Source: an uncultured Eubacteriales bacterium
GTDB lineage: Bacteria > Bacillota > Clostridia > Lachnospirales > CAG-274
Assembly (NCBI GenBank): GCA_949738935.1
Contig: CATJCJ010000614.1
Coordinates: 1-40,147, forward strand
Reading direction: 5' to 3'
DNA: 40,147 bases
Shown: positions 18,182 to 29,601 of the stretch, piece after piece
Layout of the letters: every line of letters begins with the position of its first letter
Numbering within the stretch: the stretch's first letter is position 1
Notes under the pieces: generated by a model
Told to the model about the DNA's origin: nothing
Database searches by the model: none
The model's input: only the letters and a program-made list of their open reading frames with translations
Translations under genes and position numbers: made by a program

Positions 18182-19156
18182 ATGAAATTACCTTTCATTA
18201 ACACCAAACCTGTGCGATTGATTGAACTTTTCGGGGGTATCGGCTCACAAGCTATGGCTCTCACTCGATTGAGAGTTGACTTTGAGCATTATCGACTTGT
18301 CGAGTTCGATAAGTACCCAGTCAAAAGCTACAATGCTATTCATGGTACTGATTTTGAACCTACGGACATAACTCAAATCCACGGTTCGGATTTAGGTATC
18401 GTAGACACAGACCATTACTGCTACCTCATGACCTACTCTTTTCCGTGCCAAGACTTGTCTCTCGCTGGTAAACAGCAAGGCATGAGCAAAGGTGGTGGAA
18501 CAAGATCGGGATTGCTATGGGAAGTAGAACGACTGTTGAACGAAACCGAAAACCTACCTCAACTACTCCTCATGGAAAATGTACCACAAGTACACGGTAC
18601 TAAGAACCTTGCGGATTTTGAGGAATGGATTAAGTTTCTCGAAAACAAAGGTTACTCCAACTTTTATCAAGACCTCAACGCGAAGGACTTTGGTGTGGCT
18701 CAGAATCGTAACCGCTGTTTCATGGTGAGCATTCTCGGTGACTACTGCTTTTACTTTCCTACTCCTCGGAAGCTGAATAAGGTGATGAAGGATTATCTCG
18801 AAGACTCCGTTGACGAAAAGTATTATATCAATAGTGATAAGTCTCAAGCACTAATTGATAAGCTGTTGGCAGACGCTCAGTTCAGAGAGAGAGAGAGAGA
18901 GCGTGCGTTGATCTCTCCCTTAACCATCCTCAGAGAAGGGAAATCGCAAACTGCATTTCCGCAAGAACAGACCGAGGAATTAGCAACAGAAAATCGGAAG
19001 GAACCGGAGTTGTCGAATATGATTACCGCCGCTCTGAATTATCGGAGAATTGATAAGGTGGGACTTCCTGTAGTAAAGACACTTTGTGCGAGAGATTACA
19101 AAGGGTTCGGGACAGGGTTCGACACGATGAATGGAGTGATAGAATGGAAACCGTGA
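18182..19156 (+). CDS. C5-cytosine DNA methyltransferase, N-terminal part (motifs I-VIII)
   Basis: LIELFGGIGSQAMAL, SFPCQDLSLAG, LLMENVPQV, QNRNRCFMVSILG. Confidence 0.9.
   Translation: MKLPFINTKPVRLIELFGGIGSQAMALTRLRVDFEHYRLVEFDKYPVKSYNAIHGTDFEPTDITQIHGSDLGIVDTDHYCYLMTYSFPCQDLSLAGKQQGMSKGGGTRSGLLWEVERLLNETENLPQLLLMENVPQVHGTKNLADFEEWIKFLENKGYSNFYQDLNAKDFGVAQNRNRCFMVSILGDYCFYFPTPRKLNKVMKDYLEDSVDEKYYINSDKSQALIDKLLADAQFRERERERALISPLTILREGKSQTAFPQEQTEELATENRKEPELSNMITAALNYRRIDKVGLPVVKTLCARDYKGFGTGFDTMNGVIEWKP
18884..18901 (+). repeat. (AG)9 dinucleotide repeat inside the C5 methyltransferase
   Basis: gttcAGAGAGAGAGAGAGAGAGcgtgcg, encoding RERERER. Confidence 0.95.
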
Positions 19157-23231: not shown

Positions 23232-23813
23232 ATGAAGGTCGGTTATGTACGAGTAAGCACCTTAGACCAAAATCCGGCGAGACAAATGGAGCTGATGAAA
23301 TCTCTTGGTGTGGAGAAAATCTTCCTCGATAAGATCAGCGGCAAGGACACCAATAGACCACAGTTTAATGAAATGCTCTCCTTCCTTCGGGAAGGTGACA
23401 CGTTATACATTGAATCCTTCTCCCGGTTATCACGAAGCACCAAAGACCTCCTGTCTACGGTTGCTTTGCTGACGGAACGAGGTGTGAATCTTGTCTCAGA
23501 CAAGGAAAAAGTCGATACCACCACACCACAGGGGCGGTTTATGCTGACGGTTTTCGCCGCTCTCTCGGAACTGGAACGAGAAAATATCCTCGAAAGACAG
23601 CGTGAAGGTATCGAAATTGCCAAAACCGAAGGAAAATACAAAGGTCGGAAGCCTGTTGAGACCACGGATAGGTTCTTTTTCGTGGCAAAGGCATGGTCGG
23701 AAGGAAATCTCGCCCTCAAAGACGCTATTGAGGAGTCGGGTATGTCCTCCTCTACCTTTTTCCGTAGGTGCAAACAGTATAATATTCACAAGGGAAGTAG
23801 TAAAAGTAGTTAA
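23232..23813 (+). CDS. Small serine recombinase (resolvase/invertase family)
   Basis: MKVGYVRVSTLDQNPARQMELMK...FSRLSRSTKDLL...FAALSELEREN... Confidence 0.92.
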   Translation: MKVGYVRVSTLDQNPARQMELMKSLGVEKIFLDKISGKDTNRPQFNEMLSFLREGDTLYIESFSRLSRSTKDLLSTVALLTERGVNLVSDKEKVDTTTPQGRFMLTVFAALSELERENILERQREGIEIAKTEGKYKGRKPVETTDRFFFVAKAWSEGNLALKDAIEESGMSSSTFFRRCKQYNIHKGSSKSS

Positions 23814-26295: not shown

Positions 26296-26356
26296 GTGGC
26301 GCATGATTGCGATTTGGAAACTTCGGTTTCTATCGGTCATGCGCCATTTTTATTTT
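26296..26356 (+). ncRNA. Leader hairpin copy B upstream of portal
   Basis: GTGGCGCATGATTGCGA-TTTG[GAAAC-TTCG-GTTTC]TATCGG-TCATGCGCC-ATTTTTATTTT. Confidence 0.7.
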
Positions 26357-26384
26357 CAATCATTCAAAGAAAGGAGGGGCAATC

Positions 26385-27821
26385 GTGGGAAATACCGTTG
26401 ACACTTCAAAAGGTCTGTCTCAGACAAGGCAAATGAACGGCAGACGTGTTATCAAGACCAGCGTCCGTGAGATCACCGCAGATAACGTGGTCGATGTGTT
26501 GCAGAAAGCTCTTGGCACACACGAACTGAACCGCAGTGAGATTGATTACCTGTGGAACTACTACCGTGGTAAACAGCCTATTCTCCACAGAACCAAAGAA
26601 GTGCGCCCCGAAATCTGCAACAAGATTGTAGAAAACCGAGCGAACGAGATTGTCTCCTTCAAGGTCGGCTACTTGTGTGGTGAACCCATTCAGTATGTCG
26701 GCAGAAACGGTGAGGAAGCTACCGCAAAGGCTATCGCCGCTTTGAATGAGCTTATGTTCGCAGAGGATAAAGCCACTAAAGACCAAGAGATTGTCGAGTG
26801 GCAAATGATTTGCGGCACTGCATATCGTTTGGTTCTGCCGGACGAGAAGAATGAGGAAGACGAAGCCCCCTTCGAGCTTCACACTCTCGACCCTCGTGAT
26901 ACCTTCGTTGTTTATTCCAGCGAGATCGGCAACAAGCCGCTCATGGGTGTGAAGTATTACAAGGACGATGAAGAAGTTCTTCGCTTCTCTGTCTACACCG
27001 AGAACCGCTACTACCTTATCGAAGGTGACATTCTGAAAGAGGAAAAGGCTCATGCCCTTGACATGATTCCTATTTTTGAGTACCCGGCGAACAATGCTCG
27101 ACTCGGCTCTTTCGAGATTGTCCTTCCTCTGCTCGACACGATCAACAACATCGAGTCGAACCGTATGGACGGTATGGAGCAGACCATACAGGCTTTCATT
27201 AAGTTTGTGAACTGCGACATTACCGCTGATGATTTCAAGGAGCTGAAAGAGCTTGGCGCAATCAAGGTCAAGTCCGTGGACGGTGCAAACGCTGACGTGG
27301 ACGTTGTTACCAACGATCTGAACCAAGACCAGTCTCAGACTCTTAAAGAGGACTGCTACTCCGCTATCCTCACTATCTGCGGCATTCCGAACCGTAACGG
27401 TGGTTCTTCCACCTCTGATACAGGAGCGGCGGTACTGCTCCGTGACGGTTGGTCTCTTGCAGAAGCGAGGGCAAAGGACAGTGAGCATATGTTCAAGAAG
27501 TCCGAGAAGAAAATGCTCAAGCTGGTGCTTCGTATCTGCCGTGACCTCGGTGACATTAACCTTCGCTTGAAGGATATTGACATGAAGTTCACTCGTAGGA
27601 ACTACGAAGCAATTCAGAGCAAGTCTCAAGTGCTTGTCTCTATGCTACAGCAACCTAAGATTCACCCGATGTTGGCTTTCTCTCACTGTGGTATGTTCAC
27701 AGACCCCGAAAATGCTTACGCAATGAGCATGAAGCATTATGAGGAGGAACAGGAAAAGCTCGCACAGCAGAATCCAAACCCCAACCCACCTACAGACCCG
27801 GACGATAAGTCCAAGAAGTGA
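26385..27821 (+). CDS. Portal protein (SPP1 gp6-like)
   Basis: HELNRSEIDYLWNYYRGKQPILHRTKEVRPEICNKIVENRANEIVSFKVGYLCGEP. Confidence 0.9.
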   Translation: MGNTVDTSKGLSQTRQMNGRRVIKTSVREITADNVVDVLQKALGTHELNRSEIDYLWNYYRGKQPILHRTKEVRPEICNKIVENRANEIVSFKVGYLCGEPIQYVGRNGEEATAKAIAALNELMFAEDKATKDQEIVEWQMICGTAYRLVLPDEKNEEDEAPFELHTLDPRDTFVVYSSEIGNKPLMGVKYYKDDEEVLRFSVYTENRYYLIEGDILKEEKAHALDMIPIFEYPANNARLGSFEIVLPLLDTINNIESNRMDGMEQTIQAFIKFVNCDITADDFKELKELGAIKVKSVDGANADVDVVTNDLNQDQSQTLKEDCYSAILTICGIPNRNGGSSTSDTGAAVLLRDGWSLAEARAKDSEHMFKKSEKKMLKLVLRICRDLGDINLRLKDIDMKFTRRNYEAIQSKSQVLVSMLQQPKIHPMLAFSHCGMFTDPENAYAMSMKHYEEEQEKLAQQNPNPNPPTDPDDKSKK

Positions 27822-27849
27822 TGTTTGAGCGGTTCGCCGCTTCTAATAT

Positions 27850-27916
27850 CGTCAGAGAAGACGTTAATCGCAAAAGGTAGAGAAACCTTAAATCGCAAAA
27901 TAAGACAGAGAAGTCT
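27850..27916 (+). ncRNA. Triple tandem hairpin element with identical AGAGAA hexaloops
   Basis: CGTC-AGAGAA-GACG (27850-27863); AAGGT-AGAGAA-ACCTT (27874-27889); AGAC-AGAGAA-GTCT (27903-27916); linkers share AATCGCAAAA. Confidence 0.75.
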
Positions 27917-27939
27917 ACAAACGCAAGGAGGAATATCAA

Positions 27940-28509
27940 ATGGCAAAGATTGATGTAACACAGATCGAGGGTTACGCAGAAATGTCCGCAGAGGACAAGT
28001 TGAAAGCCCTTGAGGGATTCGACATTCCCGACCCGGATTACAGCGGCTATGTGAAGAAGGACGTTTTCGATAAGACCGCTTCCGAGCTGGCTGGTGTCAA
28101 GAAACAGCTCAAGGACAAAATGACCGATGATGAAGCGGCAAAGCAGAAGGAACAGGAGGAACGTGAGGAGTTGCAGTCCAAGTACGACAAGCTCTTGCGT
28201 GAATCTGAGATTTCCAAGCATAAGGCGAAGTTGCTGGGTCTCGGTTACGATGAAAAGCTGGCTGATGAAACCGCAGAAGCTATGGCTGATGGGGATATGG
28301 AGAAGGTGTTCGCCAATCAGAAGAAGCACCTCGATTCCGTAGAGAAGCGAGTTCGTGCTGACGCTCTCAAAGATACTCCTAAACCTACTCCCGATGGAGA
28401 TTCCAAGACAATGACACTCGATAAATTCCGTAAGTTGTCCCCGGCGGAGCGTGCCGCTTTCTTCGAGGAACACCCGGAAGAATACAAAGAATTATACGGA
28501 GGTAATTAA
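27940..28509 (+). CDS. Scaffolding protein (phage GP20-like)
   Basis: Acidic coiled-coil ORF between portal and capsid. Confidence 0.85.
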   Translation: MAKIDVTQIEGYAEMSAEDKLKALEGFDIPDPDYSGYVKKDVFDKTASELAGVKKQLKDKMTDDEAAKQKEQEEREELQSKYDKLLRESEISKHKAKLLGLGYDEKLADETAEAMADGDMEKVFANQKKHLDSVEKRVRADALKDTPKPTPDGDSKTMTLDKFRKLSPAERAAFFEEHPEEYKELYGGN

Positions 28510-28511
28510 CA

Positions 28512-29324
28512 ATGGCTCATAAGATTTATGACAATTTCTTCCTCTCCAATGAGGTTGAAGACCAGTTCAATTCCCACTTGAACTTACAGCAGTTCTGTAC
28601 TGTTGATAACTCTCTCGTGGGCGAAGCTGGTATGAAGCGCAAGATCAACGTCTACACCGCTACTGACGGTACTCAGAAGTTGGGTATGGGCGAGGGCAAT
28701 ACCAAGTCTATCGAAGTTTCCTACGCTGAGAAGGAGTACGAAATTCTGCTCGCTCAGAACCGTTTTGAATACTTCGATGAACAGGCTATGACTGATCCTA
28801 TGCTTGTTCCTGTCGGTGTCCGCCACATGGGTACTGATATGTTCAACACGGTCAATGCGGACATTTTCGCAGAGTTCAACAAGGCTACTCTGACTCACGA
28901 AGCTACTTCTTACGGTTTCGGCACTTTCGCTGACGCTGTTGCGAAGCTGAACCTTGAGGAGATCGAGGGTGTGAACATCTTCGGTTTCGTGAATCCGGCT
29001 GACATGGCTGAGATTCGTAAGGCTCTGAACGAAGACCTCAAGTACGTTGAGTCCTTCGCTCGTAATGGCTACGTTGGTACTGTTGCTGGTGTAAACATCT
29101 ACACCAAGAAGGACGCTGTGTCCGGCACTATCATCATTGCCACTAAGGAAGCAGTTACCATCTTCAATAAGAAGGGTACTGAAATCGAGCAGATCACTAA
29201 GAATGCTCGTTCCGAGACTGCGGCTAATACTCGTCTGAACACCATCTTCTCTCGTAAGTATTACCTTGCCGCTCTGACTGACGCTACTAAGGCAGTGAAG
29301 ATCACTGTTGCCGAGAGCGTCTAA
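28512..29324 (+). CDS. Major capsid protein
   Basis: Position after scaffold; typical length and composition. Confidence 0.85.
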   Translation: MAHKIYDNFFLSNEVEDQFNSHLNLQQFCTVDNSLVGEAGMKRKINVYTATDGTQKLGMGEGNTKSIEVSYAEKEYEILLAQNRFEYFDEQAMTDPMLVPVGVRHMGTDMFNTVNADIFAEFNKATLTHEATSYGFGTFADAVAKLNLEEIEGVNIFGFVNPADMAEIRKALNEDLKYVESFARNGYVGTVAGVNIYTKKDAVSGTIIIATKEAVTIFNKKGTEIEQITKNARSETAANTRLNTIFSRKYYLAALTDATKAVKITVAESV

Positions 29325-29349
29325 ATCTAAGAACAGGAGGACAGGAAGT

Positions 29350-29601
29350 ATGTACGAAGTTGTAAGAGCGTTCAGAGACGCTAAGAACGAAGATCACTAC
29401 TACGGTGTAGGTGACACCTACCCTGTGTCCGGCTACAAGCCTACTAAGGCTCGTATTGAGGAGCTTGAGAAGGGCAAGAACAAGCACGGTAAGGTCTATA
29501 TCAAGAAGGTTGCAGAGGACGAAACTCCCGACAACGGTTCTGAGCAGACCGATGGTGCTGACACTGCCGATCAGACTCCCGACAACGGTTCTGAGGAATA
29601 A
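29350..29601 (+). CDS. Small head protein with duplicated C-terminal TPDNGSE segment
   Basis: MYEVVRAFRDAKNEDHYYGVGDTYPVSGYKPTKARIEEL...; ACTCCCGACAACGGTTCTGAG repeated. Confidence 0.65.
   Translation: MYEVVRAFRDAKNEDHYYGVGDTYPVSGYKPTKARIEELEKGKNKHGKVYIKKVAEDETPDNGSEQTDGADTADQTPDNGSEE

Follow-up and report, generated by a model that had tools for sequence, protein, structure and literature searches.

Probable miniature pseudoknots in tandem ahead of phage scaffold genes: a possible exoribonuclease-resistant RNA

Introduction

The head-gene cluster in the window (the whole stretch of DNA that was analysed, 40,147 nucleotides) raises a question: what is the role of the 118-nt gap between the portal and scaffold genes, which is filled by three hairpins that all carry the same hexaloop, AGAGAA? 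An earlier note, made from the letters of the DNA, had placed these hairpins between the two genes, and that placement holds: the flanking genes match SPP1_portal and PHROG 172, and the gene beyond them matches a major head protein, PHROG 544 (Table 1). We also found the rest of the leader to be as the note described it, i.e., the three hairpins themselves, a common linker (AATCGCAAAA) that begins at 27866 and again at 27891, the sequence AAACGCAAGG at 27919–27928 ahead of the Shine-Dalgarno (SD) motif, and a preceding hairpin that we name P0. Many relatives have, in place of P0, a terminator-like hairpin that carries a T run.

Several other features of the locus were recorded. An Arc-like repressor (29308–29598; PHROG 3673, 9e-20) is encoded within the head cluster, by an open reading frame that overlaps the last part of the major head gene. 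The N-terminal domain of a resolvase-type serine recombinase is encoded at 23232–23813, just upstream of the packaging genes, and a run of GA dinucleotides (18881–18902) is found towards the end of the gene for a C5 cytosine methylase (18182–19156).

Table 1. Positions of the leader elements and flanking genes in the window.
Feature	Position	Strand	Details
Portal gene	26307–27821	+	Upstream of leader; Pfam SPP1_portal, 330 bits; ORF ends at 27821
Whole leader, portal stop to scaffold start codon	27822–27939	+	From ORF coordinates; homologous region in L001–L088 and others
P0 hairpin, GAGCGG-TTCG-CCGCTT	27827–27842	+	Directly 5′ of array; varies among relatives
Unit 1 (hairpin CGTC-AGAGAA-GACG, 27850–27863)	27850–27873	+	Stem 27850–27853/27860–27863; hexaloop 27854–27859; linker TTAATCGCAA; 35.8 bits, model R1
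Unit 1, proposed pairs	G27855–C27869, G27857–C27871	+	From loop-linker covariation
Unit 2 (hairpin AAGGT-AGAGAA-ACCTT, 27874–27889)	27874–27898	+	Stem 27874–27878/27885–27889; hexaloop 27879–27884; linker AAATCGCAA; 33.2 bits, model R1
Unit 2, proposed pairs	G27880–C27894, G27882–C27896	+	From loop-linker covariation
Unit 3 (hairpin AGAC-AGAGAA-GTCT, 27903–27916)	27903–27926	+	Stem 27903–27906/27913–27916; hexaloop 27907–27912; linker ACAAACGCAA; 33.7 bits, model R1; abuts SD
Unit 3, proposed pairs	G27908–C27922, G27910–C27924	+	Both partners switched relative to closest relative, L001
SD of scaffold gene, AGGAGG	27926–27931	+	From sequence; 1–2 nt past X3 of unit 3
Scaffold protein gene, first gene downstream	27940–28509	+	ATG at 27940; PHROG 172 head scaffolding protein, E 1.7e-5
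Major head protein gene, second gene downstream	28512–29324	+	PHROG 544, E 1.5e-19

Results

The window has no excess of the AGAGAA hexamer (35 occurrences found, 37 expected). A set of three 4-bp Watson-Crick hairpins that share a loop within 118 nt did not arise in any of 20,000 dinucleotide shuffles, and two such hairpins arose once in the same number. No second triplet of this type lies in the window outside the leader, and the contigs searched showed no further array; a similar sequence at 18928–18949, in a DNA methylase gene, was rejected as a chance resemblance (13.3 bits, E 0.56 in the scan with model R1). Bearing in mind that the folding energy of the leader, taken alone, is ordinary (z −1.6), the evidence for the element is comparative, not thermodynamic.

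That evidence comes in part from a scaffold-protein search that yielded 80 loci from IMG/VR, where 152 relatives were found, and seven more from bacterial genomes. Directly upstream of the scaffold start, 59 of 61 related loci (near-duplicates included) carry one or more units of the standard loop classes; three units per locus are usual and two occur sometimes, the exceptions being L083, with one degenerate unit, and L088, with none. The distance from the third loop to the ATG is mostly 27–34 nt. One of the loci, L086, belongs to a prophage of Criibacterium bergeronii. A separate search of IMG/VR with the pattern AGAGAAN{4,5}TAAATCGCAAA, which ignores both the stem and the gene context, returned 79 matches, and in 76 of these the flanking stems are complementary. 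Thus, stem letters vary freely while complementarity is kept, which strongly supports the earlier proposal that stems and loops are under selection at the level of RNA: the relatives have the loops, and pairing is retained in them.

The genes that follow the pattern matches, in so far as they had an identifiable downstream start and enough length to be read, look like scaffolds, judged by eye from their coiled-coil-like character and similar C-terminal motifs; furthermore, the array also precedes scaffolds that are very unlike that of the window in sequence. Units are present in the human gut phage records MT835537, MT836094 and MT835477. The carriers are many tailed phages, mostly of Clostridia-like gut and rumen bacteria. 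A model of the triple array (R2) matched the window alone among 399 genomes of the phylum and four sequences, the window included, among 146 relatives; it is this rarity in genomes that marks the array as a phage trait. Units are absent from portal relatives in phages of Staphylococcus, Streptococcus, Eggerthella and Aeribacillus, and blastn of the leader against phages gave nothing of note. One relative, L082 (JAFQAR010000047.1), encodes a scaffold that is 99% identical to that of the window, on a contig filed under a Bacteroidales MAG; since the RNase J of the window's assembly is Bacillus-like, one of the two may have been binned wrongly.

The key feature of the array is one that the earlier note did not contain: loop base 2 covaries in Watson-Crick fashion with a linker base, X1, and loop base 4 covaries likewise with X3. 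In general terms, a unit comprises a stem of 4–6 bp, a loop of the form A1 N2 N3 N4 A5 A6, an A-rich linker of 4–10 nt, and then X1 X2 X3 followed by A; among the units, G occurs at loop position 1 and T is possible at the last position. We calculated mutual information for 129 distinct units in which the linker had been located without use of X1 or X3. The values were 0.418 for N2–X1 (shuffle maximum 0.128) and 0.194 for N4–X3 (shuffle maximum 0.127), and the loop-linker signal was limited to these two and to N1/N6–X0 (0.25). An antiparallel, H-type arrangement (N2–X3, N4–X1) was rejected, with values of 0.027 and 0.016 and 12 of 63 unpaired in each.

Variant loops bring variant linkers with them. 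The ACAGAA loops (15 units) are followed by G-R-C and never by C-N-C, the AGACAA loops (8 units) by C-R-G, the AAAGAA loops (4 units) by T-G-C, and the AGGAAA loop by C-G-T; none of these classes has the standard linker, and on inspection all have a complementary one, as do the few variant units that an automatic rule had missed. The third hairpin of L092, with the loop AGAAAA and no clear linker, may be an exception. In a pairing-blind count across the whole of IMG/VR, both loop types were crossed with both linker types, a hairpin of at least 3 bp then being the sole requirement; this gave 12 + 39 pairing hairpins versus 1 + 1 mispairing hairpins (Fisher p=6e-10). On a tree of 79 scaffolds, quickly built and with several long branches, loop base 2 of unit 3 has switched independently at least seven times. 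Even the window and its nearest relative, L001 (scaffold 89% identical), differ in this way: AGAGAA with ACGC in the former, ACAGAA with AGAC in the latter. The units of alignment A2 were selected for pairing, and the 100% pairing found there is not counted as proof of the loop-linker contact, for which the independent tests are the mutual information, the cross-table of loop classes and the pairing-blind count; its stem covariation is usable because the stem-blind IMG/VR matches back it independently.

The letters switch together across phages, which indicates that loop and linker touch; to judge from this covariation, the contact is real and is Watson-Crick in its choice of letters. Each unit would consequently be a miniature loop-linker pseudoknot, and the leader is very probably a tandem array, usually of three, of such knots. 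We also noted that loop G1 goes with G at X0, and A1 with A or T at X0 (for example, the GGAGAT/GGAGAA units of L040, L042, L053, L075 and L081); the N1–X0 correlation suggests a third contact, which may be of a non-Watson-Crick kind.

If N2 meets X1 and N4 meets X3, the linker and the 5′ side of the loop would run in the same direction, which would make these parallel pairs reverse (trans) Watson-Crick pairs. The parallel order of two pairs is unusual, and it is a point against the proposed knot. On the other hand, longer stems are accompanied by greater loop-to-X1 distances (Spearman 0.37, p=4e-9, with X positions located by pairing), a relation to be expected of a linker that returns to the loop along the stem.

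These same data bear on whether the array acts as DNA. Inverted repeats exist in DNA too, and the element might in principle be an operator, a pac site or a chance repeat; the free variation of the stems, the fixed orientation to the gene, the strand-asymmetric loop-linker pairs and the conservation across many phages make this extremely improbable.

Discussion

What might such an array of knots do? The earlier note had seen in the loop the hallmark of ANTAR-protein targets, which require A1 and an obligatory G4 in a hexaloop (PMC8934654). The dual hexaloops of eut leaders (PMC8934654) do resemble the array in that they offer tandem hexaloops with A1 and usually G4. However, the array differs from them in that its G4 is not obligatory, in its loop-linker pairing, in its three copies and in its place in the leader of phage capsid genes. 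The data do not support the ANTAR idea, bearing in mind that G4 becomes C (AGACAA) or A (AGGAAA) and A1 becomes G (GGAGAT), the linker changing to match. Moreover, we found no terminator-like site within 27822–27939, hence no terminator that overlaps any hairpin, whereas in an ANTAR target the second hairpin overlaps an intrinsic terminator. A search of the whole assembly bore out the note's remark that no ANTAR protein lies in the window; there is one elsewhere in the assembly, on contig C312 (G000:C312:22690–22830, locus L180, 45 bits).

More broadly, the array could be a binding platform for a host or phage protein, ANTAR-like or other, that reads A1, A5, A6 and the A-rich linker after folding. 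The adenines in loop and linker are near-invariant, tandem copies are common for multivalent binding, and an ANTAR protein is encoded in the assembly. Yet the G4 that ANTAR needs is replaced together with its linker partner, the covarying bases would be occupied by an intramolecular contact, and a pseudoknot whose third loop is A-rich would itself need conserved adenines. We consider such a platform unlikely.

No Rfam 15 family reached its gathering score, and none appeared up to E=10 in the 124-nt element. STAXI RNA (RF01728; PMC2864571) is a pseudoknot that is repeated two, usually three times, and that sometimes lies near phage c4 antisense RNAs. Repeated pseudoknots are thus common to STAXI and the array; STAXI has UUCG tetraloops, occurs in Enterobacteriales and lies near DNA-manipulation genes. 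Its model did not match the element at either the gathering threshold or a relaxed E-value, and the same model run against genomes gave no match anywhere, controls included, which makes that scan uninformative. The 5′ mRNA stabilizers of Gram-positive bacteria depend on bound ribosomes or on simple stems. Such leaders (those of phage SP82, ermC, aprE and hbs; PMC7509114) slow 5′ decay and, like the array, adjoin the ribosome-binding site; none described in PMC7509114 is a tandem array of covarying pseudoknots. We found no paper on phage exoribonuclease-resistant RNAs (xrRNAs) in the open-access literature, subscription journals and preprints lying mostly outside that search. The RNA family appears to be unreported, inasmuch as there is no description in Rfam 15 or in open-access literature; its novelty is not certain.

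The closest likeness is to coremin xrRNA-C of benyviruses, cucumoviruses and others, a minimal hairpin with a conserved A-rich spacer (PMC10520033, PMC5869530) that stalls Xrn1, has a proposed loop-spacer interaction and an AAAC-bearing spacer, and is known in repeats and at intergenic positions (PMC10520033). Its layout is a 4-bp hairpin, then a conserved spacer of 8–10 nt, then a second hairpin; its hexaloop consensus is YGNNAD, with natural examples CGAGAU and CGCGAA, and G2 and A5 are needed (PMC10520033). The array likewise joins a hairpin to an A-rich spacer, has G2 and A5 in the loop, and is repeated in tandem; unit 1 of the window even has the stem GUC/GAC and the spacer GUUAA in common with the published motif. 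On the other hand, loop position 1 is A or G (GGAGAT) and never Y, whereas G2 (mostly), A5 and D6 fit YGNNAD. The spacer from stem to X1 is mostly 4–10 nt with X1=C present, and its exact sequence differs from that of coremin. After units 1 and 2 comes the next unit, after unit 3 the SD and not a second hairpin. Position 4, free in the coremin hexaloop, pairs with the linker in the array, where positions 2 and 4 both vary with their linker partners and the linker triplet is CNC, GRC or CRG. Furthermore, coremin is Xrn1-resistant and belongs to plant viruses, whereas the array belongs to DNA phages of bacteria and is known from sequence. By the published consensus the array is not coremin, and at most it would work like coremin.

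It has been observed that a flavivirus xrRNA halts bacterial RNase J1 in vitro by a mechanical block. The window's assembly encodes a full-length RNase J1-like protein (TIGR00649, 652 bits; 632 bits to the RNase J1 structure 3zq4) with its HGHEDH motif intact, and the array is placed immediately before the scaffold and major capsid genes, the products of which are needed in large amounts. It is from the likeness to coremin, the behaviour of RNase J1, the presence of RNase J in the assembly and the position before the capsid genes that we propose an RNase J stall. The array is most likely, though we say so tentatively, an exoribonuclease-resistant RNA that would protect scaffold/capsid mRNA from RNase J.

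Beyond the fold itself, we infer the following steps. The long late transcript would be cleaved endonucleolytically upstream of the array, whereupon host RNase J, digesting in the 5′-to-3′ direction, would be halted by the first knot or, should one unfold, by the one after it. The scaffold-capsid mRNA would then outlive the rest of the transcript, and scaffold and capsid proteins may be made in excess. The last knot abuts the ribosome-binding site, and a ribosome bound there may make the block complete.

Since unit 3 fits so closely against the SD, the main rival is translational control: the knots, chiefly unit 3, would adjust how ribosomes load on the scaffold gene. They might do so as an enhancer or insulator by which the SD is kept accessible, or they might be the operator through which a scaffold or capsid protein regulates its own synthesis. 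Unit 3 ends 1–3 nt before the SD, a place from which the knot could serve translation just as well, and its distance to the start codon is narrow; furthermore, the element tracks the scaffold gene even where scaffold sequences are very different. But an RNA that stays constant while scaffolds differ widely is ill-suited to autoregulation by one specific protein, loop bases that covary freely speak against a protein that reads those positions base by base, and the SD lies outside the knot. We therefore regard translational control as possible and somewhat doubtful.

In 27 of 59 loci the 30 nt ahead of unit 1 contain a run of at least four T, and strong terminator-like hairpins with a T run stand directly 5′ of the array in L040, L042, L043, L060, L076, L085 and others. 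A cis-acting RNA of the put or EAR type, which would act on RNA polymerase in antitermination or pausing, might be imagined from such neighbours. However, these hairpins are 5′ of the element, beyond the reach of a cis antiterminator, and the array is tightly coupled to the SD of one gene and not to a promoter; we judge this role quite improbable.

Returning to the RNase J block, a more general proposal, which we put forward still more tentatively, is that DNA phages possess a class of exoribonuclease-resistant RNA in which tandem 24-nt knots with parallel pairs would stop bacterial RNase J and set the dose of capsid mRNA. If that is true, the array would be the bacterial counterpart of the xrRNAs of eukaryotic RNA viruses, and xrRNA-like blocks would also have arisen in bacteria against RNase J. 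Such a function would explain how expression of scaffold and capsid is raised within one long late transcript, and a modular element of 24 nt would become available with which to stabilise mRNA in Gram-positive hosts. The RNA family itself appears to be widespread in phages of gut and rumen bacteria, and its unusually clean covariation defines what is very probably a new, tiny pseudoknot.
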